Assembly: GCA_025352825.1 (NCBI GenBank)
Contig: JANXSG010000143.1
Coordinates: 1 to 33,750 of the forward strand
Length of the DNA stretch: 33,750 nucleotides
From: Chthonomonadaceae bacterium
Lineage (GTDB): Bacteria; Armatimonadota; Chthonomonadetes; Chthonomonadales; Chthonomonadaceae
Direction: 5' to 3'
Within the stretch, counting starts at the first letter, position 1; each line of letters opens with the position of its first letter. Below the pieces are notes generated by a model. It searched no databases. It saw nothing but the letters and a program-made list of their open reading frames with translations, and had not been told where the DNA came from. The position numbers and the translations under genes were made by a program. Shown one piece after another: positions 3,628 to 31,888 of the stretch.

Positions 3628-3671
3628 TAACTTTCCCTTATGCTGGCACATCCAGAACCTGAAATTATTTA

Positions 3672-3728
3672 CCTCACCCCCTGCCCCTCTCCCAAGTAGC
3701 TTTGTTCCTCGCATGGGAGAGGGGGTGA
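3672..3728. repeat. Palindromic intergenic repeat (G/C-rich family, copy a)
   Basis: The arms cctcaccccctgcccctctc and gggagagggggtga enclose a loop. The sequence belongs to the same palindrome family as the copies near 21000, 21442, 24513, 24652, 31671 and 31844, but has a different loop. It lies 45 bp after the transglycosylase stop and may also act as a transcription terminator. Confidence 0.7.
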
Positions 3729-4723: not shown

Positions 4724-4800
4724 TTTGAGTTACTTTTGATTTTGCTTCAAGTGACTACTTCAGATGCCGAAGAGGTTCCGGAAGGAACAATCTTGTCGAG

Positions 4801-4825
4801 TGTCGAATAGCGATCTGAGACGGGC
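4801..4825 (+). repeat. Direct repeat, copy 1 (partner at 7104)
   Basis: Bases 4801-4825 match 7104-7128 with one difference (tgtcgaatagcgatctgag, then a/g, cgggc). Each copy is open as a tiny frame, MSNSDLRRA(E/D), starting GTG at 4800 or ATG at 7103 and stopping within 12 codons. The copies bracket the MNT/PIN-like segment. Confidence 0.7.
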
Positions 4826-4856
4826 TGAATGTTAGAAGCGCTCAAGAATTCGGAGA

Positions 4857-7017: not shown

Positions 7018-7103
7018 TTTATTACAATCTATATCTATTGTCGATAAATCTGTTTATACGTTTAATCATTATTCTATAAATTTGAAGGAAGAAATTGATT
7101 GCA

Positions 7104-7128
7104 TGTCGAATAGCGATCTGAGGCGGGC
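7104..7128 (+). repeat. Direct repeat, copy 2 (partner at 4801)
   Basis: Twenty-four of 25 bases match 4801-4825. With an ATG at 7103 it reads MSNSDLRRAD and stops (TGA). It lies about 80 bp before the oxidoreductase start. Confidence 0.7.
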
Positions 7129-7209
7129 AGACTGATATCGCAGAAATGACAGCTATTGAAAATCGATCTGTGGCGCCAACACTCCAACCAGAATATGAGG
7201 ACCACTTAT

Positions 7210-20950: not shown

Positions 20951-21528
20951 AATGAGATAATTGCAAAAGTCTCAACGTAGCTGAAAAACTCGTTGACGCC
21001 CTCACCCCCCGTTACCCTCTCCCAAAAACAGGAGAGGGGGTGACTACGGCATCGGTTTTTCAAAAGTATTTAAGGTTTTGGTAACTATTCTGCATGGCCA
21101 TTCGCCCCAATCGAATATTGTCATATTTCAAATGTGAATCGTTTAAGATGTAAGCTGCATGAACTCGAAGACAGGAAAAAATAGCCGTAAAAAAGCACAA
21201 AAGACTAGGTAGAATATCTAAGTACGATAAATCGGCATATAAATACATGCAGAAACTTTTTTTGCGCATTTTGTGCTTTTTTGCGGCTAGTTTATACTCG
21301 CTCAAATTGATCATTAATACCTATTACGATATTAATACTCGCGCAGTTGAATATAATCAGATTATGCTGAATAGTTACGTTTTTTGATTTAATATAAGTA
21401 TAAATCCCCCGAATTGGGAGACTGGAAACCAACGATTTAAAGTCACCCCCTCTCCTGTTTTTGGGAGAGGCGGTCGGGGGTGAGGGCTGGAATGTGCGTG
21501 TATATCCAGCTTTTGCAATTACCTCATT
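20951..21528. repeat. 578-bp structure of concentric inverted repeats
   Basis: Three nested inverted repeats share a centre near 21240. The outer ends (20951-20971 and 21509-21528) are about 20 bp and match the orphan copy at 191. The middle pair are the palindromes 20999-21043 and 21442-21486, in opposite orientation. The inner pair are tagccgtaaaaaagcacaaa (21182-21202) and its inverse (21269-21289, 20 of 21). No transposase gene lies inside; the one 84-codon minus-strand frame (21060-21314) has no recognised domain. It looks like a non-autonomous mobile element or an inverted duplication. Confidence 0.65.
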
Positions 21529-21544
21529 TGTTGGAGAATTTATT

Positions 21545-21691
21545 ATGCTGAGAAATTCTAGATAGTTTATTTGTGTTGTTTTACGGCTAATAATTTGTCT
21601 TGAAGTTCAATTAGTCTACAGCTTCGACGATTTGAAAGTGAAGTCACAACGTATTCGATTGTGGCGAATCGTCATGCTGAATAGTTACGTA
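21545..21691 (+). repeat. Third diverged copy of a 120-150 bp repeat
   Basis: This segment resembles the reverse complement of about 21078-21220: shared blocks are attctan.tagt, ttttacggcta, tcttnnagttca and tattcgattg.ggcgaat.g.catgc.gaatagttac. It also matches 21266-21381 more weakly. The 17-base end atgctgaatagttacgt is identical at 21364-21380 and 21674-21690. Two copies are therefore direct and one is inverted. Confidence 0.5.
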
Positions 21692-21712
21692 TTAAAATTT
21701 ATTAGTTTGCTC

Positions 21713-21807
21713 TTGATTTTTCTAGTGAATAGGCTATAATTTTTACATAACCCGCCCATTGCTGAGGCATGGGTTTCGAAACCGCCCCAGGCCGGTTTTG
21801 CTTTTTT
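21713..21807 (+). ncRNA. Candidate small RNA with own promoter and terminator
   Basis: TTGATT (21713-21718), a 16-bp spacer and TATAAT (21735-21740) would start transcription near 21747. The short transcript could fold as cccat..atggg (about 21755-21773) and then aaaccg..cggttt (21779-21798), followed by a T-run (21802-21807). A small palindrome, ggtttcgaaacc, overlaps the terminator stem and could form an alternative hairpin. It ends about 225 bp before the gene at 22034, so it could be a stand-alone RNA or an attenuated leader. The opposite strand also has a 60-codon frame. Confidence 0.35.
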
Positions 21808-22033
21808 ATAGTCCTCATTGTTCCTCATAAGATATCCCTTTGAATTTATGAGCTTACATAGACACATTTAACCTCTATAACGGCGCCCTCAAAAAAATAC
21901 TCTACTCAACGACTTCGAATTCAAATTCATCTTTCTCCCACTCCAACTGCAGTCAAAATTAATCATCGAATAAATCCTTTTTTACCAATTTAATGAGAAG
22001 GAAGATTTAGGCTGCACGCCGAACAAGGACAGC

Positions 22034-24562
22034 ATGATTATCAAAACTTCTATGTTCCTTTCTCTACTGTTTTTTATATTTTCAATAAATGCTGCGTCTT
22101 CTGTATTCGCTTCGGCAAAGAGCCTGCTGGCGCTGCACACAAGAGCATCGACATTCGAGCTGGATGACACTGGTTCGCTCATCGGTATCTATGCGGTGGG
22201 TGATGCGCAGAACTATCTGGCGACTGGTCAGCCCGCTCCACTGCTTTCACTCAGGATAAACGGTGTTTTCCACGCACCTGTCCGTGCAGAATGGAATGGC
22301 AGAGAGAAGAAGATCACCCTGCAGTACGCTCCTGCTAGGATTTCTGCAGTGATCAAGGTGATCTCAAAACCGACTCACATCATCTTCGAAGTCGTGGATA
22401 TACACTCAACATTACCAGTTGAACTGATACTATGGGGTCCCTACCCAACGACAATAAAAGAAATTATCGGCGAGACCGTTGGAGTGGTGCGCGACGATAG
22501 ATTTGCCATCGGGATACAGGCTCTCAATGCCAGAACGCTGGGAGGATTTCCAACCAATGAAAACGATATCGAGGCAGAGTGCTCGGATACAGACCTGGGG
22601 CACTACACGAACCTCGACCCCGAACTATTGAAGGAACAGGGCTATCGAGGTGACACCGCCCGGCGCACATCGTATGGAAGCGTACTGCAGGCATTTTGCA
22701 GAAATCGAGAACAAGAACACATCATCCCGAACTGGGGGCACGAGCAGTATCTGGTGAAACCGTTCGCAGATGGAGGCGTTATCGGCAGCAAGATCGCACT
22801 TTTTGCATGTCCGGCGAACAAAGCGCTCAAGACTATTGGTGCCATCGAGATCGCTGAGAATCTCCCTCATCCGATGCTGAACGGAGTCTGGGCGAAGGAA
22901 ACGATGGCTGCCACATCCGCCTATCTGATCGTCGACTTTAGTGAGGAGAATATCAGCAGGGCAATCGAAATGACTCTTCGGGCTGGCCTGAAGTATCTCT
23001 ACCACAGTTCGCCCTTTGAAACCTGGGGGCATTTCAAACTCAAAGCTTCCCTCTTTCCGCATGGATGGGACGGAATGCGTACCTGCGTGGAAAAAGCTAA
23101 AGCAGCTGGAATCGACATAGGGTTCCACACACTCTCAAACTTTATCACTCCGAACGATCCCTACGTCACTCCTAAGCCAGATACTCGCCTGGCTAGAATT
23201 GGGAACAGCACACTTACCGGCGCAATCGATGCCTCTTTGAAAGTGATTCCCATTGCCTCGCCTGCCTATTTCACCAAGCTAACAGCAATGAATACCATCG
23301 TCATAGGGGATGAACTGATAAAATATCACTCCGTGTCTGCCGATGTTCCGTATCGTCTGCTGGATTGTGAGCGGGGTGCCTGGGGAACGAAAGCGAGTTC
23401 TCACTCCTTCGGCGATATGGTGGGCAAACTGCTGGATCACGAATATGGCGTGTTTCTTTCCGATGCCAATCTCTCTCAGGAGATAGCCCGAAATATAGCC
23501 GACCTATTCAACCATACAGGGACACTGCAGCTCTCATTCGACGGTCTTGAGGGAAACTGGTCTAATGGCTATGGCCAGTATGGAAGAACCCTCTTCACCA
23601 AATCCTGGTTCGATTCACTCTCTGCTGAACTCCGCGGCCATGTTATTAACGATGCGAGCAACCCCGGCCACTTCAACTGGCATATCAACACGCGAATGAA
23701 CTGGGGCGAGCCCTGGTATGCTGGATTCCGTGAAAGCCAGACTCTCTATCGCTTCAAAAATCAAGTCTATTTCGAGCGCAACCTCATGCCGCACATGCTT
23801 GGGTGGTTCGCGCTGCGGCCGAATACATCACTGGAGGATGCGGAGTGGCTGCTGGCGCGCGCGGCAGGGTACGATGCCGGGTTCGCTCTCGCCACCAGCC
23901 TTGCGAGCACGGCGCAGCTTGCAGCAGATCCCGCTTCGGCGGAAGCTGCCCGCATTTTTGGATCCACCGGTGAGGTACTCGAAGCCGTTCGCCAGTGGGA
24001 GACGGCGCGGATGTCGGGGGCTTTTCCGGATTCTCTCAAGGCAGAACTGCGCGATAATCACCGTGAGTTCCACCTGCAGCCAAAGAGCAATAAAAGCTGG
24101 GATATCAGCGAGCTGCATACAGCACGATTAACCTTGAATAGCGATTCAGGACTTTCGGGTGAACTCGAATTGAAGATTCCAGAGTCGAAACAGTCTCTCT
24201 ACTGGACAATTCATTCGGATTCCAAGGAACCCATCGGGGATATCACCCTTGAGATCGATGGCGTGGTGATGGCGCAACTGAAGGAACAGTCCCTTCCTCC
24301 GGGAGGAAGCTTGCGATATCGAGGTGGAACAGAGGCCATGATATCCGACACAACTGGACATGAGATCGGGCTTATTCCCTGCTCAGAACCGACGGTGGCT
24401 GCATCATCAGTACTTCACAAATTGAAGGTGACATGTGGTGGTTCTGTTCACGGCAGTCTTAAAATAGAATGCTCCGCACTCGGGCTGCCCAGGCGGATTA
24501 CCAGCAGGCACGCCCTCACCCCCCGACCCCCTCTCCCAAAAACAGGAGAGGGGGAGAATTGA
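22034..24562 (+). CDS. Secreted glycoside hydrolase-like protein
   Basis: The 842-residue protein begins with a signal peptide (MIIKTSMFLSLLFFIFSINA). The N-terminal third is beta-rich (ELDDTGSLIGIYAVGDAQNYL, substrate-like sandwich). The centre (about 285-640) has TIM-barrel features: AYLIVDFSEENISRAIEMTLRAG, LKYLYHSSPFETWGHF, KAAGIDIGFHTLSNFI and LQLSFDGLEGNWSNGYGQYG. The C-terminal beta part starts near 700. The layout recalls large polysaccharide-degrading enzymes; the acidic residues in FDGLEGNW are candidate catalytic groups, but I cannot name a CAZy family. The last 15 or so residues (LTPRPPLPKTGEGEN) are encoded by the intergenic palindrome at 24513, so the original stop was probably lost. 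Confidence 0.75.
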   Translation: MIIKTSMFLSLLFFIFSINAASSVFASAKSLLALHTRASTFELDDTGSLIGIYAVGDAQNYLATGQPAPLLSLRINGVFHAPVRAEWNGREKKITLQYAPARISAVIKVISKPTHIIFEVVDIHSTLPVELILWGPYPTTIKEIIGETVGVVRDDRFAIGIQALNARTLGGFPTNENDIEAECSDTDLGHYTNLDPELLKEQGYRGDTARRTSYGSVLQAFCRNREQEHIIPNWGHEQYLVKPFADGGVIGSKIALFACPANKALKTIGAIEIAENLPHPMLNGVWAKETMAATSAYLIVDFSEENISRAIEMTLRAGLKYLYHSSPFETWGHFKLKASLFPHGWDGMRTCVEKAKAAGIDIGFHTLSNFITPNDPYVTPKPDTRLARIGNSTLTGAIDASLKVIPIASPAYFTKLTAMNTIVIGDELIKYHSVSADVPYRLLDCERGAWGTKASSHSFGDMVGKLLDHEYGVFLSDANLSQEIARNIADLFNHTGTLQLSFDGLEGNWSNGYGQYGRTLFTKSWFDSLSAELRGHVINDASNPGHFNWHINTRMNWGEPWYAGFRESQTLYRFKNQVYFERNLMPHMLGWFALRPNTSLEDAEWLLARAAGYDAGFALATSLASTAQLAADPASAEAARIFGSTGEVLEAVRQWETARMSGAFPDSLKAELRDNHREFHLQPKSNKSWDISELHTARLTLNSDSGLSGELELKIPESKQSLYWTIHSDSKEPIGDITLEIDGVVMAQLKEQSLPPGGSLRYRGGTEAMISDTTGHEIGLIPCSEPTVAASSVLHKLKVTCGGSVHGSLKIECSALGLPRRITSRHALTPRPPLPKTGEGEN

Positions 24563-24694
24563 GTATGGGTTTGACTGTATTATATTAGATTTTGATCTCA
24601 CCACAAGCCCGTCCGCTGATTGTATGTAATGTGAAGGCCAACTATTTTAAGCTCCCCCTCTCCTGTTTTTGGGAGAGGAGGTCGGGGGGTGAGG
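24513..24694. repeat. Facing pair of palindromic repeats (copies d and e)
   Basis: Copy d (24513-24557, ccctcaccccccgacccc...) and copy e (24652-24694, inverse orientation, ...gtcggggggtgaggg) face each other across about 94 bp. Each is itself a hairpin with a tcccaaaaacagga loop. The first copy overlaps the 3' end of the 842-codon gene. The pair lies between convergent genes. Confidence 0.85.
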
Positions 24695-24773
24695 GATCGA
24701 AGAGTGTTTCGAATACATCGAGAATTTTGCAAGATCTCTACTATTTTACACTTGATGCATGGTATGAAACTGC

Positions 24774-25685
24774 CTACGCAGCCGGCTGGCTGGACTGAAA
24801 ACGAGATTTAAGCAGAACTCGCTGAGCACGGAAAATATGCGAGATTAGCAGCTCCTGTTCCCAGCTCGCCATCGGCATAAACTCACAGGCAATCTGCACA
24901 TCCAGGCCGCCTCGTACCACAGTCCGCTGACGACTACATACCCGCGCCAGAAGTGCTGTTCCGCGAAAAGCCGGCAATCCCAGCCGAAAACGCAGCAGAG
25001 TGCCAGGCTCATATCGGGAGAGAAGCTCCTCCGCTTCATTGGCAGTGCATGGCCGGCCCATCTCCACACGCACTCCTCCACCAGAAAGATTAACTATCTG
25101 CCCCATGATAGGGTCGGGAGCAGGTGGTGCAGCTTCCGCATAGTCAAAAAGAGCATGGGCTGATAGAGGTACACGCACATGCTTTCTTCGCTGAATTCGT
25201 GCCATCCAAAACGGGCGCGCTAAACGAAGCTTCACCCTCCCAGGCCGCTCTGAATCCACTTCACTAGAAACCACCACGGTGTCGAGCTGATAGAGTGCGT
25301 GCTTTGTTGTAATCGTCAAATTGACTGCTGAGCCAGCTACAATTCCAAAATGACCTCCCGCCATTTTAATATTCTGAATCATCTCAGAATCCGGCTCCAT
25401 GTTAACCAGAAGATGCCGCTTCTCAATATGGTCAAGTTCCGCATGGAAGGTGGGAGTTTTTTCATTTGGATTTTGCTTTGAGATTGGGATTATCGTTCCA
25501 GCGGCCCCACTCTGCAATCTGTCATCTACTGGCAGCACATCCCCATCATGCGCAGCCTTGATTCGCTTCCACTCCGCATATTTTCTGCTATTCTGCCAGA
25601 GTCCAAAGCACGAAATCGCCGCGCCAGAAATTAGCACGAGCCATATGCAGAATACTATCGCCCTGTTTAAATCCATAGATTCCAT
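24774..25685 (-). CDS. Membrane-anchored PilZ-domain protein
   Basis: The 303-residue protein has one N-terminal transmembrane helix (about 9-29). Residues 78-160 form a YcgR-like N-terminal beta domain. The PilZ domain begins at QRRKHVRVP, where R167 and R171 form the RxxxR c-di-GMP motif. NLSGGG (199-204) completes the (D/N)xSxxG motif. Both binding motifs are present, so c-di-GMP binding is likely. Such proteins adjust motility, pili or exopolysaccharide output. It is the last of three minus-strand genes, 174 bp after the TPR gene, and may be on its own transcript. Confidence 0.88.
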   Translation of the reverse strand: MESMDLNRAIVFCIWLVLISGAAISCFGLWQNSRKYAEWKRIKAAHDGDVLPVDDRLQSGAAGTIIPISKQNPNEKTPTFHAELDHIEKRHLLVNMEPDSEMIQNIKMAGGHFGIVAGSAVNLTITTKHALYQLDTVVVSSEVDSERPGRVKLRLARPFWMARIQRRKHVRVPLSAHALFDYAEAAPPAPDPIMGQIVNLSGGGVRVEMGRPCTANEAEELLSRYEPGTLLRFRLGLPAFRGTALLARVCSRQRTVVRGGLDVQIACEFMPMASWEQELLISHIFRAQRVLLKSRFQSSQPAA

Positions 25686-25859
25686 CTCAGATACGTGCTC
25701 CCTCTGGCTGTGAATCCATATGCTGTCACTATCTTAGTGCTGATTACAGCATGTGCTTATCCACACATTCAGCATCAAGTGTGCCACAACTTTATCTTAG
25801 AGCAAAAACGAGTAAATTTCAGTAGCTCAACACAATGAAGCCCGGGAGGCTGACCTATA

Positions 25860-27836
25860 TCAGCGAACAACAGCACTCTCGGGCGCTTTAGGATTTTCGC
25901 GGCCAACCCTTATCTTATCCAGCCTCTCCCGTGCCAATGAAAGCGCACGAAAAGTATCAAGCTGTGCGCTTTTATAAGCTTCCTCTGTACTTGTAGTACC
26001 CTTAAGCAGGAATTCGTTGTATAGGCTGCCAGCCTGCAGAAGAAGCGCTGCACTCTGCTGGAAAGAAGCATTCGTAGCCTCCTGTGTGGGAGCGGGAAGA
26101 AGCCTATCTAGATAGGCTGAAGCCGCTTCTGCGCGATCCTTCAAAGCACTCATTGTTCGTTTTGTCGCTATCGCGGAGAGCTGACCGCCGACGTGCGCCT
26201 GATATATATTTTGAAGTTGATCTGTCATCTCTTTCAGACGTCCCCCCATGACTCGCATAATATCAAGATAGTCGTCTAGATAATTCTCACGATCATCTGC
26301 AGGCGTGAGATCATGAGCCAGCTTGATCTCTTCCAGACTGGGTGTGTACTGCTTGGAGTCTCCACCCGCTCTTCCGAGGTAAGCGCGGGCCAATCTGCGA
26401 TGTGGCAGAGGGCTCTTTGGTGCATTTTTTGCCGCTTTGAGATAGGCATTCACCGCCTCGGGAAACTGCTGAGATGCCAGAAATGCGTTTCCCAGGGCAA
26501 CCTGCGCATCTATATCGTTCGGATCGAGATCTGCAGCTTCTGTATAGGCTTTAAGCGCTCCCGCACTGTCTCCGCGCGCCAGAAGTGCATCTCCCTGCAT
26601 TCGTATCAGGCCGCTGTCTTTCGGAGCTAATTTCCTCGCTCTGCTCGATTCCCTCAATGCATCTTCCGGCATGTGCACATCTTGATACGCCTGTATGAGC
26701 AGACGGCGCAGACCAATATCTTTCGGCCGTTCATTGATAGCTCTGCGCAGAGATAGTATGCCATTAGCGAGATCACCAGACTGACGAAATCGTGCCGCCT
26801 CCGCTTCAAAGTCCATTTTTGCATCGCCTGGCGGAGGAGATATTTCGGGAAGATTGGTGGGCGGATTTTGTGAAGGAGAGGTGTCGGTAGTGAATCTTAC
26901 CGCTGATTCAGTAGGTTTCGTGGTATCAGCCTCACCAACAGTTTTAGCCTTTGCGGAAGGGACATGTGGTGAGGGAAGTTTTACTGGTCTAGGCGAATCA
27001 GCCCCTGTTTGAAGTTTCTCTTTATTAGATTTCGTCACTTTTTGAACTGGTTTCAGTTCGACAGGTACCTTGTTTTCAACAGACTTTATGCTTGTCTGAT
27101 CATCATTCGTTTCAGAAGTAATAGGTGTTTCAACCGAAACAGAATGCTCTTTTACAGCAGGTTTCACTTTATCGATAGGCGTCTCTTTAGGTTTCTTGAC
27201 TCTGTCCTTTAATTCCACAGTGGTAATAAGACTATCAGCAAGGTGGGAAGGCGCTCCGATTGCGGCTGTTATTTTATCGACTGCCAGATCAACGAGCTCG
27301 ATTTTTTTAAGCCTACGTTTTCCAATTCTGTTTGCAGTGGTGACCTCTTGTGCAGAAGATGTAATCCATGTTTCGGCGTTCTGATACTGCTCAAATCGAA
27401 CCGAGAGGCTGAGGTTATCTTTACCGTTCACTGCGCCAAAGCTAAGAATGTACTTCGCCCCAAAAACATTTGCCAGACGTTCGAGAGTCTCCTTCTGATA
27501 TGGCTCCACGAGATCCGCCATAGCGATAGAATGTTCCCTGAGCGCTGTTTTTACTACCGGCAAATGCGGGCTCAATACCATCAGGCGATAGTGCGTAGAT
27601 TGTGAGAGAGCCTCTTTGAGTGTGTCGGCCAGAAGCACATGCCACTCTTTTTGGGAAGGAGCCGGGATCTGTCCCTGATTCTGAACTATGAGCAGCAGTG
27701 GCTGATTTTCCTGGGAAGCAGTGGCGGAACTTCCTAGGTCGGCAGTCTGAGAATTTGCATTGCCTGCAAAACCAGAGAGCGACAATAACATGCCTACAGC
27801 AATCAGAGCGTTTTGAATTCTAGTATCTATTCGCAT
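25860..27836 (-). CDS. Exported TPR protein
   Basis: The 658-residue protein has a signal peptide to about residue 29 (LLSLSGFAGNANSQ). Residues 45-195 form a globular domain (LLLIVQNQGQIPAP, FGAKYILSFGAV), like periplasmic domains that assemble with partners. A low-complexity Lys/Pro/Thr-rich linker (about 210-340) follows. TPR units lie at about 345-500 (LANGILSLRRAINERPKD, AGALKAYTEAADLDPNDIDA, FPEAVNAYLKAAKNAPKSPLPHRRLARAYLGRAG), then a helical tail. TPRs suggest a scaffold role. It overlaps the upstream gene by 10 bp, so translation is coupled. Confidence 0.82.
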   Translation of the reverse strand: MRIDTRIQNALIAVGMLLSLSGFAGNANSQTADLGSSATASQENQPLLLIVQNQGQIPAPSQKEWHVLLADTLKEALSQSTHYRLMVLSPHLPVVKTALREHSIAMADLVEPYQKETLERLANVFGAKYILSFGAVNGKDNLSLSVRFEQYQNAETWITSSAQEVTTANRIGKRRLKKIELVDLAVDKITAAIGAPSHLADSLITTVELKDRVKKPKETPIDKVKPAVKEHSVSVETPITSETNDDQTSIKSVENKVPVELKPVQKVTKSNKEKLQTGADSPRPVKLPSPHVPSAKAKTVGEADTTKPTESAVRFTTDTSPSQNPPTNLPEISPPPGDAKMDFEAEAARFRQSGDLANGILSLRRAINERPKDIGLRRLLIQAYQDVHMPEDALRESSRARKLAPKDSGLIRMQGDALLARGDSAGALKAYTEAADLDPNDIDAQVALGNAFLASQQFPEAVNAYLKAAKNAPKSPLPHRRLARAYLGRAGGDSKQYTPSLEEIKLAHDLTPADDRENYLDDYLDIMRVMGGRLKEMTDQLQNIYQAHVGGQLSAIATKRTMSALKDRAEAASAYLDRLLPAPTQEATNASFQQSAALLLQAGSLYNEFLLKGTTSTEEAYKSAQLDTFRALSLARERLDKIRVGRENPKAPESAVVR

Positions 27837-29110
27837 AGTTTCATTCCTGTCTCGCTTGCTTTCAGCCCATTTCGTCCGGCGTCGGTAAGGCGTCCCTCTT
27901 TTTCGAGCTGACGGTAGGAATCTATAGCAGATTGATAGTAGGTGCGTGCTGACTGCTTTTTGCCGGATAGCTGATAACAGTAGGCTATTTTCTGGTTCAC
28001 ATCTGCGCTTCCATCTCCAGAGACAGCAAGAGCTTTTTTGTACGCATCGATCGCTTGTGGATATTTCTCCTGCATTTTCAACTGATTCCCCATCATCAAG
28101 AATGGCTGCGCTGAGGATACATTACTAGAATTAGTTCCCGAGGAGGGCTTAATGGGGGACGATATCTGAATGTTAGTACGCGAATTTGCATCATTAGGAT
28201 CGGGCTTGGGCTGTTTCGCCAGATCGGCTGGCGGTACAGTTATTGTGATCTTTCCATCTCGACTAGGCGTGATCTCGTCGGGAGGGTCTAGTGGAAGATA
28301 AACTCTATTGTTGGCTGTTCTAACACCCACTCGTGTGCCAGATTGATCTGTTTTTATCCCAGAAACTTTACCGCCAGGGGTGGGTACATACACTATCTTG
28401 GGTTGCGGCTGAATGGGTGGATATACGAAAATAGGCTGCTGGCCATAAGACCCTGGGGATGTCACAGGCACAGGATTGGCAGGTTGGAGTGGTAAAGCGT
28501 TGTTATCAAGTTTTTGTGCCACACGTTGTTCGGTACGATCTTTTCCAGGTGAAATAGGTTTATTTTCCGCAGTGCTACTTCGAAGCATATAACCCACTGC
28601 TGCACTGATCAGTACAAGCCCAAATGCACCCCCAGCAAGTAGAAGCGGTGCTGGCGTGAAAGAACGATTAGGGGCAGTATGATCTACAAATACTGCTCGC
28701 GGGGGAGCTTGCTGCTGTACGACTTGACTTCCAGAGCCCTTGAGCTGATCAAGTTTCAAACGATCTGCGACACTGCCTGGGTTCATGAGTACGATGGTCT
28801 CGTACTCCAAGATAGCCTTTTCCTTATCACCAATAGTATCGTATATCTGGCCCAGCATTGAGTGGGCAGCGGCGCTGTCCGGCTTAATCGCGATAGCTTC
28901 CTGGCAAAGTGCAATCACAGCCGAGAGTTCGCCTGATTTACGAAACCGATAGGCACGTTCCAGCAGTGCAGAAACTCGCTCGTCCTCCGGCAATGCACGA
29001 TCGTACTCCTCCTCACTTATTTTGTGAGGTATAACTTCAAACTTATGACCGCACTCCCGGCAAAAGTGACTGTCTGGAGTGTTTTTCGCTCCACATTCCG
29101 TACAATACAT
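27827..29110 (-). CDS. Zinc-ribbon and TPR membrane protein
   Basis: The 427-residue protein opens with a double-CxxC zinc ribbon (Cys3, Cys6, Cys17, Cys20: MYCTECGAKNTPDSHFCREC). TPR-like helices follow (45-125: RFRKSGELSAVIALCQEAIAIKPDSAAAHSMLGQIYDTIGDKEKAILEYE). One transmembrane helix lies near 155-175 (LLLAGGAFGLVLISAAVGYML). A long Pro/Gln-rich stretch then precedes a second TPR block (about 345-410). The ribbon and first TPRs would be cytoplasmic and the rest exported. It is the first gene of an apparent operon with the exported TPR protein (10-bp overlap). Confidence 0.85.
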   Translation of the reverse strand: MYCTECGAKNTPDSHFCRECGHKFEVIPHKISEEEYDRALPEDERVSALLERAYRFRKSGELSAVIALCQEAIAIKPDSAAAHSMLGQIYDTIGDKEKAILEYETIVLMNPGSVADRLKLDQLKGSGSQVVQQQAPPRAVFVDHTAPNRSFTPAPLLLAGGAFGLVLISAAVGYMLRSSTAENKPISPGKDRTEQRVAQKLDNNALPLQPANPVPVTSPGSYGQQPIFVYPPIQPQPKIVYVPTPGGKVSGIKTDQSGTRVGVRTANNRVYLPLDPPDEITPSRDGKITITVPPADLAKQPKPDPNDANSRTNIQISSPIKPSSGTNSSNVSSAQPFLMMGNQLKMQEKYPQAIDAYKKALAVSGDGSADVNQKIAYCYQLSGKKQSARTYYQSAIDSYRQLEKEGRLTDAGRNGLKASETGMKLCE

Positions 29111-29374
29111 AGTTCTTCCTCTTTATAACCCATCTTGCAAAATGTGATGATCAGAATTTCGGGTCACTGTTCTGAGTTTTTTAACTACTTTCAGATTTTT
29201 GAAATTACATCATATATATTTCATTATAAACGAACGCGTGTAGTTTTGCAAGTCCGCATTCATATCGAAAAGAAATTGAGTGGGTATTTACTGTAACAAA
29301 TACACGCTTGTCCAGTCCAAATAACTGTCTTGATGTTGAGTAACCACCACTTTTTCAGCCGGGGTAAGAGCACG

Positions 29375-31666
29375 ATGCAGATGAAGCAGATTTCTTTGGC
29401 GCTACTACTACTATTTTCACACGCTGAGATGACTTCTGCCGCAGTGCCTCCATTATCGAAGAATAAGTTGGTTCACACTCCTATCCATCCCGCCAAATCC
29501 ATAGCTTCTCGCACAACTACTAAATTACTGGCCGTAAACACTGATAAAACGACTCCGGCTAAGATCGAGTTCCTGCGAGATGTCGCACCTATACTGGATC
29601 GAAGCGGCTGCTCCGTGGCAGAGTGTCATGGTAAGTTTGGTGGCCGTGGTGGGCTGCAGCTATCCCTTCTCACTCTCAGCCCTGAAGATGACTACGATCC
29701 TCTGATTCACGGAGACCGTGGTAGGCGTGTGAATTTCGCAGCTCCTGAAAAGAGCCTGTTTTTATTGAAATCTACCGCTCAGATCGCCCACAAAGGCGGC
29801 CGTAGGTTTATAGTCGGTTCACTTGCCTACAATACTCTTCTTAATTGGGTTAAATCGGGAGCCCCTTTCGAACCCAACGATCCGCGCCTTGTTACTCTTA
29901 CCCTGCAGCCACCATTAGTCGCGCTGAAAAAAATCGGTCAGAAACAGCAGCTCCACACACTCGCAGTTTACACCGATGGCAGCAAGCGGGATGTCACCGC
30001 GCAAACAGTTTTCATGTCCACCAATGGTTCAATTCTTCAAGTGAGTCCTGCGGGAATGGTTACCGGTGGACGGTGGGGAGGCGGAGCGATCCTGGGTCGT
30101 TATCTGGGAACGATCGCAGCTTCATTTTTCACGCTGCCACAGACATTGAAAGGGGCATATCCACCGCTGCCATCCGGTAATCTGATAGATAAAATGGTCT
30201 TCGACAATCTGAAGAAGTTGAATGTAATACCCTCCGCTCCCAGTTCCGATACAGAATTTCTGCGCCGTGTGACCCTGGACACGCTGGGCAGGCTTCCCAC
30301 TCTGGAGGAGATAGCAGCCTACTCAAAAAATACCGATCCAAATAAACGAGCAAAAAAAATAGACAGCCTGCTGGACACTTCAGAGTTCACAGATTTTAGG
30401 GCACTTCATCTCGCGGATCTTCTTCGTGTGAATCCCCAGAAACTAGGCAATGCCGGCACTTTGGGCGAGCGCGGCGCCGAGCTTTTCTACGAATGGATTT
30501 GGAAAGGCGTCGCCTCCAATAAACCCTGGGATCAATTTGTTCGGGAGATCATCAGCGCACGCGGCAGTACTTATCACAACGGGCCGGCAAACTTCTACCG
30601 AATCGAGAATGGCGCGAATGACCGCATGGAGAACATCGGCCAGGCGTTTCTGGGAGTGCGAATGTCGTGCGCGCGATGCCACAAACATCCGTTTGATCGA
30701 TGGACTACCGATGATTACTGGAACTTCTCCGCTTTTACCGCAAAAGTGGGTATCATGGGCGGCCGAATCTATAATGAGAACGTAGTCACCTACTCTCCGC
30801 AAACAGGACTCGCAAATCAGTCTGTCAATGGCCGCAACAAAGGGAAATTAGCTCCTGCGACCTTCTTGGGGGAAAAATCACCTGCGCCCGATTCGCCTGA
30901 CCAACTCAATGCTCTCGCTGCCTGGATGACAGATTCGAAAAACACTTTCTTCTCCAGAGCAGCAGTAAACAGGATATGGTCGTACTATTTTGGAAAAGGT
31001 ATTATTAATCCCGTGGACGACATGCGTGCCACATCACCAGAGAGTGTCCCTGGGCTTCTCGATGCTCTGGCGCAGGAGTTCGTGAAAAGCAAGTACGATG
31101 TCAAGTCTTTGATTCGCGAGATTATGAACTCTCGAATCTATCAGCTCAGTTCGATTCCAAACGACTCCAATGTCAAAGATGATCAGTTTTTCTCGCGATT
31201 CACCCCCCGCCCCATGCCTGCGCAAGCGCTTTTAGATATGCTGAATCAGGCGACAGGAATTGAAGAACGTATAGGGTACTATCCGGAGAGATCGCGTGCA
31301 GTTCAGGCGGCATCACCTGTATCGAGTTATTTCCTGGATTCTTTCGGACAGTCTCATCGTGAGTTCCTGGCAGATATCGATCCGAAGCTGGAGCCAAACC
31401 TTGTTCAAACTCTGCATATGATCAATTCGCCCTATATCGAGAGCAAAGTTCGTGATGGACACAATACTACGGAACTGCTGAAACATACCAAGAGTCCCGA
31501 AGATGTAGTTCGGAATTTATATTTAAGAACTTTTTCGCGCGAGCCTTCGACAGCTGAAGTATCAAAATCCGCTGCCGTTATGGCAGGTGCTAAAGACTTA
31601 AACGAGGGAGCTCAAGATCTGCTCTGGGCGCTGGTAACTTCTCGCGAATTCTATTTCAATCATTAG
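29375..31666 (+). CDS. DUF1549/DUF1553 protein with cytochrome-type motifs
   Basis: The start is taken at ATG 29375, where a signal peptide begins (MQMKQISLALLLLFSHAEMTSAA). A TTG at 29330 is also in frame. The product has 763 residues. The N-terminal cytochrome-like part has C79-SVAE-C84-H85 (CX4CH, as in other DUF1549 proteins with GCNAGACHG). A Big2-type Ig-like module is at about 190-250 (LHTLAVYTDGSKRDVTAQTVF). DUF1549 follows from about 268 (IDKMVFDNLKKLNV), with a canonical CxxCH at C432/C435/H436. DUF1553 is at about 540-760 (FFSRAAVNRIWSYYFGKGII, SREFYFNH end). These proteins are common in Planctomycetes and relatives; the role is unproven, perhaps polysaccharide-linked electron transfer. 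The DUF1501 gene follows. Confidence 0.9.
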   Translation: MQMKQISLALLLLFSHAEMTSAAVPPLSKNKLVHTPIHPAKSIASRTTTKLLAVNTDKTTPAKIEFLRDVAPILDRSGCSVAECHGKFGGRGGLQLSLLTLSPEDDYDPLIHGDRGRRVNFAAPEKSLFLLKSTAQIAHKGGRRFIVGSLAYNTLLNWVKSGAPFEPNDPRLVTLTLQPPLVALKKIGQKQQLHTLAVYTDGSKRDVTAQTVFMSTNGSILQVSPAGMVTGGRWGGGAILGRYLGTIAASFFTLPQTLKGAYPPLPSGNLIDKMVFDNLKKLNVIPSAPSSDTEFLRRVTLDTLGRLPTLEEIAAYSKNTDPNKRAKKIDSLLDTSEFTDFRALHLADLLRVNPQKLGNAGTLGERGAELFYEWIWKGVASNKPWDQFVREIISARGSTYHNGPANFYRIENGANDRMENIGQAFLGVRMSCARCHKHPFDRWTTDDYWNFSAFTAKVGIMGGRIYNENVVTYSPQTGLANQSVNGRNKGKLAPATFLGEKSPAPDSPDQLNALAAWMTDSKNTFFSRAAVNRIWSYYFGKGIINPVDDMRATSPESVPGLLDALAQEFVKSKYDVKSLIREIMNSRIYQLSSIPNDSNVKDDQFFSRFTPRPMPAQALLDMLNQATGIEERIGYYPERSRAVQAASPVSSYFLDSFGQSHREFLADIDPKLEPNLVQTLHMINSPYIESKVRDGHNTTELLKHTKSPEDVVRNLYLRTFSREPSTAEVSKSAAVMAGAKDLNEGAQDLLWALVTSREFYFNH

Positions 31667-31670
31667 TTTG

Positions 31671-31888
31671 CCCTCATCCCCCGACCCCTACTCCCAAAAA
31701 CAGGAGAAGAGGAGCTAGATCGGTAGTTTGTAGAGTGCTACAAGTTTGTATAAATTGATAGTCTGATTCTCTACTCTCTTATTTTTAGGAGAGATCGATT
31801 GTTTGTAAAGAGTTATAAGTTTGTATAAATTGATAGTCTGATTCTCCCCCTCTCCTGTTTTTGGGAGAGGGGGCGGGGGGGTGAGGGC
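31671..31888. repeat. Facing pair of palindromic repeats (copies f and g)
   Basis: Copy f (31671-31714, ccctcatcccccgacccc...) and copy g (31844-31888, ...gggggtgaggg) are inverted relative to each other. Each can fold on itself, or f can pair with g. The pair fills the gap between the DUF1549 and DUF1501 genes. The gtgaggg end of copy g is the only plausible ribosome binding site for ATG 31892. Confidence 0.85.
31726..31846 (+). repeat. Tandem repeat, period 75 bp, two copies
   Basis: Bases 31726-31771 and 31801-31846 match at about 42 of 46 positions (both include agtttgtataaattgatag). Each is followed by a palindrome: a worn one (tactctcttatttttaggag) and copy g. This indicates a local duplication of one repeat arm. 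Confidence 0.75.

Follow-up and report, generated by a model that had tools for sequence, protein, structure and literature searches.

A dispersed palindrome pair in a Chthonomonadaceae genome, possibly a REPIN-like element partnered by a DUF559 nuclease

Many bacterial genomes contain short GC-rich palindromes without a known driver, such as BoxC of E. coli and RIME of rhizobia. The 33,750-nucleotide stretch analysed here (contig JANXSG010000143.1, positions 1 to 33,750, of the Chthonomonadaceae bacterium assembly GCA_025352825.1; hereafter the window) raises the same question of what is repeated and which enzyme moves it. The window contains three facing palindrome pairs, with arm complementarity of 85-98% and gaps of ~400, ~95, and 129 bp. 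An earlier note on this DNA had placed them at 20999/21442, 24513/24652, and 31671/31844, where they are indeed present, and had proposed that the pair is the mobile unit and is moved by a REP-associated Y1 (IS200-like) transposase. What was described there as a 45-bp palindrome is a hairpin of 24-28 bp, laid out as CCCCCTCTCCC-AAAAACA-GGAGAGGGGG, plus a tag of 14-15 nt, GCCCTCACCCCCCGA, which forms the outer side of each arm and within pairs always points outward. We call the dispersed pair U. On balance, we lean towards the view that U is a REPIN-like miniature non-autonomous mobile element, and that the enzyme partnering it is a DUF559 nuclease rather than one of the Y1 transposases.

A strict pattern found 184 copies in the 4.87-Mb genome, compared with none for the reversed control pattern, which is far more than chance would give, and ~100 of these 184 sites were inspected in fetched stretches, which were scanned with a tolerant pattern. 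Among neighbours at most 200 bp apart, 53 were facing, 10 were in the ++ and 9 in the -- orientation, and none were back-to-back. The order within U is tag-hairpin-spacer-hairpin-tag, with a length of 164-199 bp (median 180 bp, for units between 160 and 215 bp), and the spacers, of ~95 bp, are related to one another. There are two loop types, A (AAAAACA) and C (GAAGCTTC), with zero mixing inside a unit, and the arms of type-A units are more similar within than between units (p = 8e-4). U is also almost entirely intergenic, with an open reading frame (ORF) coverage of 4% as compared to 72% for random segments. Because orientation and spacing are fixed, arms match, loop types are unmixed, and ORFs are avoided, the pair is supported as the repeated unit. 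Thus, collecting the copies and measuring their spacing and orientation, as the earlier note had advised, revealed regularly spaced facing pairs and not random singles, and its proposal that the unit is the pair is borne out to this extent. At several sites a single hairpin carries tags on both flanks, which may fit slippage loss of the segment between the two hairpins.

The enzyme named by that note fared differently. Movement of U by a REP-associated Y1 (RAYT/TIRYT) transposase would suit the facing doublets and the extragenic placement, both of which are REPIN traits (PMC3116915), and the genome does have two Y1 genes. However, neither of them (on C171 and C294) has a convincing palindrome within its 3.3- to 8-kb neighbourhood, so that the expected Y1 gene flanked by the same palindrome was not found in this genome, and the tag of U, CCCTCAC/GTGAGGG, differs from GTAG and CGTC. 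The Y1 transposase was therefore dropped as the partner, and we give it hardly any chance of being the mover of U.

Instead, both full DUF559 (PF04480) genes of the genome are bracketed by palindromes. At C58 the arrangement is U-gene-U: the DUF559 ORF has on either side a unit built like the U described above, and the two units are direct repeats of 206 bp (1014-1219 and 1597-1802). At C22 the gene is flanked by inward-tagged palindromes, one of which has the AAAAACA loop common in this genome. A further DUF559 match, a weak one located in a 1524-aa open frame (C152), has no bracketing palindrome. Bracketing in other genomes was scored by aligning the 5' flank of each DUF559 gene to the reverse complement of its 3' flank. 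Since these scores depend on GC-rich hairpins, gene-family controls were used; the DUF559 loci themselves were the best-scoring genes and not a random draw. In total, 66 of 111 DUF559 genes from ~20 phyla were bracketed, in two sets of 32 and 79 loci which include the two genes of this genome. In the smaller set (30 Planctomycetota genomes and the two genes here), 20 loci exceed 99% of random segments and 19 score higher than any random control (maximum 35), and in the set from ~20 phyla 46 of 79 testable loci score above all 844 controls. Further DUF559 loci from Planctomycetota exceeded 35 in 28 of 39 cases, whereas none of 30 cold-shock (CSD) control genes from Planctomycetota was bracketed. 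The palindrome sequences vary among loci, and the order hairpin-tag-gene-tag-hairpin is kept in the loci read by eye; each bracketed gene has copies of its own palindrome on both sides, their tags directed toward it. Many cassettes have direct repeats of U on both sides. The control for direct repeats is noisy (99th percentile 226), and therefore only clear cases such as L031 and L151 are relied on. The association between DUF559 and palindromes is firm, and the open-access literature naming DUF559, whose coverage excludes most subscription journals, suggested no link to palindromes.

Small GIY-YIG nuclease genes proved unsuitable as a negative control. Among 30 Planctomycetota loci of this kind (L276-L305), 9 of 29 testable ones are themselves bracketed by inverted repeats, and cold-shock genes were chosen as the control for this reason. 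The GIY-YIG palindromes belong to other families (TCATGCTGAAC.., CTGAGCTTGTCGAAG, and ATTCCCGCG..CGCGGGAAT), and they represent a possible second nuclease-palindrome pairing.

In DUF559, D44, E55, and H61 are invariant, and E15 is nearly so. The DUF559 profile matches the solved endonuclease-like protein 3hrl at 4e-35 and 3r3p ('mobile intron protein'), which we take to be I-Bth0305I, at 4e-4. Judged by its sequence, DUF559 belongs to the Vsr-like (Vsr/EDxHD-type) PD-(D/E)XK nucleases and is a relative of the homing enzyme I-Bth0305I. E. coli YcjD is a recognised Vsr relative (PMC1189080), and a DUF559 gene has been assigned to the EDxHD homing endonuclease family (PMC9403480). Moreover, the Caulobacter DUF559 protein VsrA has been reported as responsible for the SOS response seen when its partner methylase is absent (PMC12907096); therefore, members of the DUF559 family can be active nucleases.

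Palindrome similarity rises with DUF559 similarity, with a Mantel r of 0.22 for 67 loci, above all 2000 permutations, and of 0.18 for 96 loci, where the permutation maximum was 0.15. DUF559 paralogues in the same genome carry different palindromes, and in a test of 26 genes with their nearest protein relative in a different genome, the arm proved more similar to that of this relative than to that of the same-genome paralogue (0.28 vs 0.20, p = 0.004). The tag CCTAACCCCCT is common to L248 from Cyanobacteria, L190 from Bipolaricaulota, and L155 from a planctomycete. Across a set of 151 genomes of Planctomycetota, palindromes of the CCCTCACCC type reached a count of 10 or more in 17 of 68 genomes with DUF559 (called at E <= 1e-15) but in only 4 of 83 without it (p = 4e-4), and 2 of these 4 have a weaker DUF559 match. 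As far as sequence comparison goes, palindrome sequence is thus shown to track DUF559 relatedness, not the host genome.

This covariation bears on an alternative in which the nuclease gene is a passenger. A different enzyme, or replication slippage, would then have spread U, and DUF559 genes would home into the abundant U repeats or recombine at them, using them as landing sites much as EDxHD homing enzymes do. The U-gene-U direct repeats would be accounted for in this way, as would the kinship of DUF559 to I-Bth0305I and the fact that the gene is much rarer than U (2 genes against 184 strict copies). A pure passenger, however, would be expected to use whichever repeat is common in its genome, whereas the type of palindrome varies together with that of DUF559, and paralogues within a genome differ in their palindromes. 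The covariation argues against a pure passenger, without proving catalysis, and we consider such a history unlikely.

If U is instead a mobile element served by the nuclease, as we favour, we infer an enzymatic role of the nuclease on the palindrome. In outline, the DUF559 nuclease would recognise hairpin and tag in trans, in the form of a cruciform or of a single-stranded hairpin, and would cut at the tag edge, after which U, or U together with the gene, would be copied or rejoined elsewhere through host repair. A direct U-gene-U cassette would then be expected from insertion of gene and U beside an existing U, or from homing into a lone U.

Several observations weigh against this role for the nuclease. 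Lone U copies show no evident target-site duplication, and no transposition event with resolved polarity was found in the loci and strains compared. By the score used, ~40% of DUF559 genes are without bracketing, and two genomes, G109 (77% complete) and G116, are palindrome-rich yet DUF559-free. The Azospirillum DUF559 locus, next to prfA, is conserved among the strains compared; it is inherited vertically and is not itself mobile, although the same has been said of RAYTs. Shared vertical descent could explain the relatedness of palindromes and proteins, to which the within-genome test is a partial answer. Finally, VsrA reportedly works together with a DNA methylase, so that at least some DUF559 members have another role.

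Among known systems, REPIN/RAYT (Bertels and Rainey 2011, PMC3116915; Nunvar et al. 2010, PMC2817692) shares with U the inverted palindrome doublet as a dispersed extragenic unit, and with the DUF559 loci the enclosure of an enzyme gene by palindromes of its own and the presence of several coevolving enzyme-palindrome pairs per genome. The two differ in the enzyme, which is a Y1/HUH transposase in REPIN/RAYT and, as the candidate partner of U, a PD-(D/E)XK (Vsr-like) nuclease, and in the tag, which is GTAG/CGTC in the former and CCCTCAC and its relatives in the latter. The ~95-bp spacer of U and the U-gene-U direct repeats are also unlike REPIN/RAYT. The EDxHD homing endonucleases, exemplified by I-Bth0305I, have a catalytic domain related to DUF559 with conserved E, D, and H residues; however, they occur within introns or inteins, and the allele that they convert is an empty one, whereas the DUF559 gene lies between dispersed palindromes. 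Miniature inverted-repeat transposable elements (MITEs), like U, are short non-autonomous intergenic units with inverted ends, but the ends of U are hairpins plus a tag, and a clear target-site duplication is lacking.

The gene ycjD is found between sapF and fabI in 3362 of 5426 E. coli genomes, followed by palindromes of the same kind as those of U. One of these (GGTCCCCTCGCCCCTCTGGGGAGAGGGTTAGGGTGAGGGG) occurs at a median of 16 places per E. coli genome and is probably BoxC, an identity suggested by its copy number. It is of the same kind as the arms of U, but is present mostly as single hairpins at the sites seen. BoxC is a known E. coli family of 56 bp with 32 copies (PMC2267715). Between pstB and pstA (L273), E. 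coli strains vary in whether they carry a BoxC-like palindrome: the difference of 92 bp is bounded by an 8-bp repeat, AACCGTGT, involves no gene, and fits either an insertion with duplication or a deletion between repeats. The presence or absence of ycjD itself was rejected as an empty site, as it is not clean, with eefRABCD standing in place of ycjD.

In S. meliloti, a two-palindrome unit occurs in inverted copies on both sides of a DUF559 gene, and related units of ~110 bp are dispersed in a RIME-like manner. RIME of Rhizobium and Sinorhizobium, reportedly described by Osteras et al. in 1995, is a ~110-bp unit of two palindromes, the same design as at the S. meliloti DUF559 gene, and the S. 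meliloti units may correspond to RIME1. A search for empty sites on S. meliloti pSymB gave only U copies that were fixed in the species or broken by insertion sequences, the flanks in sister species being too diverged, and none of 40 relatives checked for empty sites of the Chthonomonadaceae unit had the loop type of U.

Taken together with these loci, DUF559 nucleases mobilising their own palindromes could constitute a second, independent, bacteria-wide REPIN-like system, with BoxC/YcjD and RIME-like elements of rhizobia as members and perhaps with parallels, based on different palindromes, among other small nucleases such as GIY-YIG enzymes; we regard the chances for and against this generalisation as evenly balanced. 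If it were true, an enzyme could be assigned to orphan repeats and a biological role to DUF559, and REPIN-type elements would have more than one origin, with chemistries that are unrelated. E. coli K-12, in which both ycjD and the repeats are present, would allow an immediate test.

The palindromes of the window, together with an outer element bounded by terminal inverted repeats (TIRs), are as follows.

3671..3722 (approximate ends), + strand: single variant with another loop, CAAGTAGCTTTGTTCCTCGCATG, found by the tolerant pattern search
20956..21523, no strand: outer element of 568 bp enclosing pair 1, with TIRs GATAATTGCAAAAGTC / GACTTTTGCAATTACC-like
20998..21042, + strand: pair 1 left arm, outer tag GCCCTCACCCCCC plus hairpin
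21444..21488, - strand: pair 1 right arm, facing the left arm of pair 1
24512..24556, + strand: pair 2 left arm, running into the stop of ORF 22034-24562
24652..24695, - strand: pair 2 right arm, giving a unit of ~184 bp, the standard length for the genome
31670..31714, + strand: pair 3 left arm (degraded), directly 3' of the stop of the DUF1549/DUF1553 gene
31844..31888, - strand: pair 3 right arm, 3 bp 5' of the ATG of the DUF1501 gene

The single variant, which the earlier note had given at 3672, was thus recovered. When the arm DNA was folded, z-scores against shuffles were -2.3 to -4.0 in 4 of the 6 arms; the left arm of pair 3 is decayed. The left arm of pair 2 provides the last 16 codons of ORF 22034-24562, and pair 3 occupies the gap from the DUF1549/DUF1553 gene to the co-directional DUF1501 gene, neighbours that mark the organism as planctomycete-like. 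The spacer of pair 3 (31717-31846) contains a tandem duplication with a period of 75 bp, 55 nt of which are 89% identical.

The position of pair 3 brings up the possibility that the palindromes serve to terminate transcription of, or to insulate, a nuclease gene that is costly, such as one from a Vsr/methylase pair, and that this regulatory use is the reason for their spread. Filling the space between co-directional genes, as pair 3 does, would agree with this, and so would the GC-rich hairpins and the cooperation of Caulobacter VsrA with a methylase (PMC12907096). Against this, the hairpins are without the T-run of intrinsic terminators, and ~180 dispersed paired copies with related spacers look mobile, which makes a regulatory origin highly improbable in our judgement.

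Pair 1 is not the only pair enclosed in an outer element. A subset of U units sits in longer TIR-bounded elements (GGTAATTGCAAAAGTC/GACTTTTGCAATTACC), at a constant distance from the ends, and the full lengths of these elements are near 130, 260, and 568 bp. This is what would be expected if a DDE-type MITE with GGTAATTGCAAAAGTC repeats at its ends carried the pairs as cargo and its transposase moved them, and a few elements with the same TIRs but no palindrome (L119, L125, and L126) have, as read by eye, flanking duplications of 4-5 bp, the sequences seen being ATACT, CTAAT, and CCTT. However, many units, namely those of loop type C and short-tag ones of type A, have no such TIRs and have unrelated flanks, and the MITE is thus not the general cause; nor would it explain the same palindromes at DUF559 genes of other phyla. 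The outer layer has the appearance of an ordinary MITE family into which U has been taken up. While the cargo explanation is probably true for the TIR-bounded subset, as an account of U in general it is quite improbable.

Elements with GGTAATTGCAAAAGTC ends form a MITE superfamily with several unrelated interiors (window 20956-21523, 191-206, and 29194; L119, L123, L125, and L126). Units of ~450 bp have an extra inner inverted repeat, GCCGCAAAAAAGCACAAAA / TTTTGTGCTTTTTTGCGGC, which is kept between copies (window 21173-21298; L007 1700-1815). An Rfam scan of the window revealed two tRNAs and nothing else. Elsewhere in the window, 4781-4834 and 7084-7137 are direct repeats of 54 nt, which are 78% identical and have GTCGAATAGCGATCTGAG in common.

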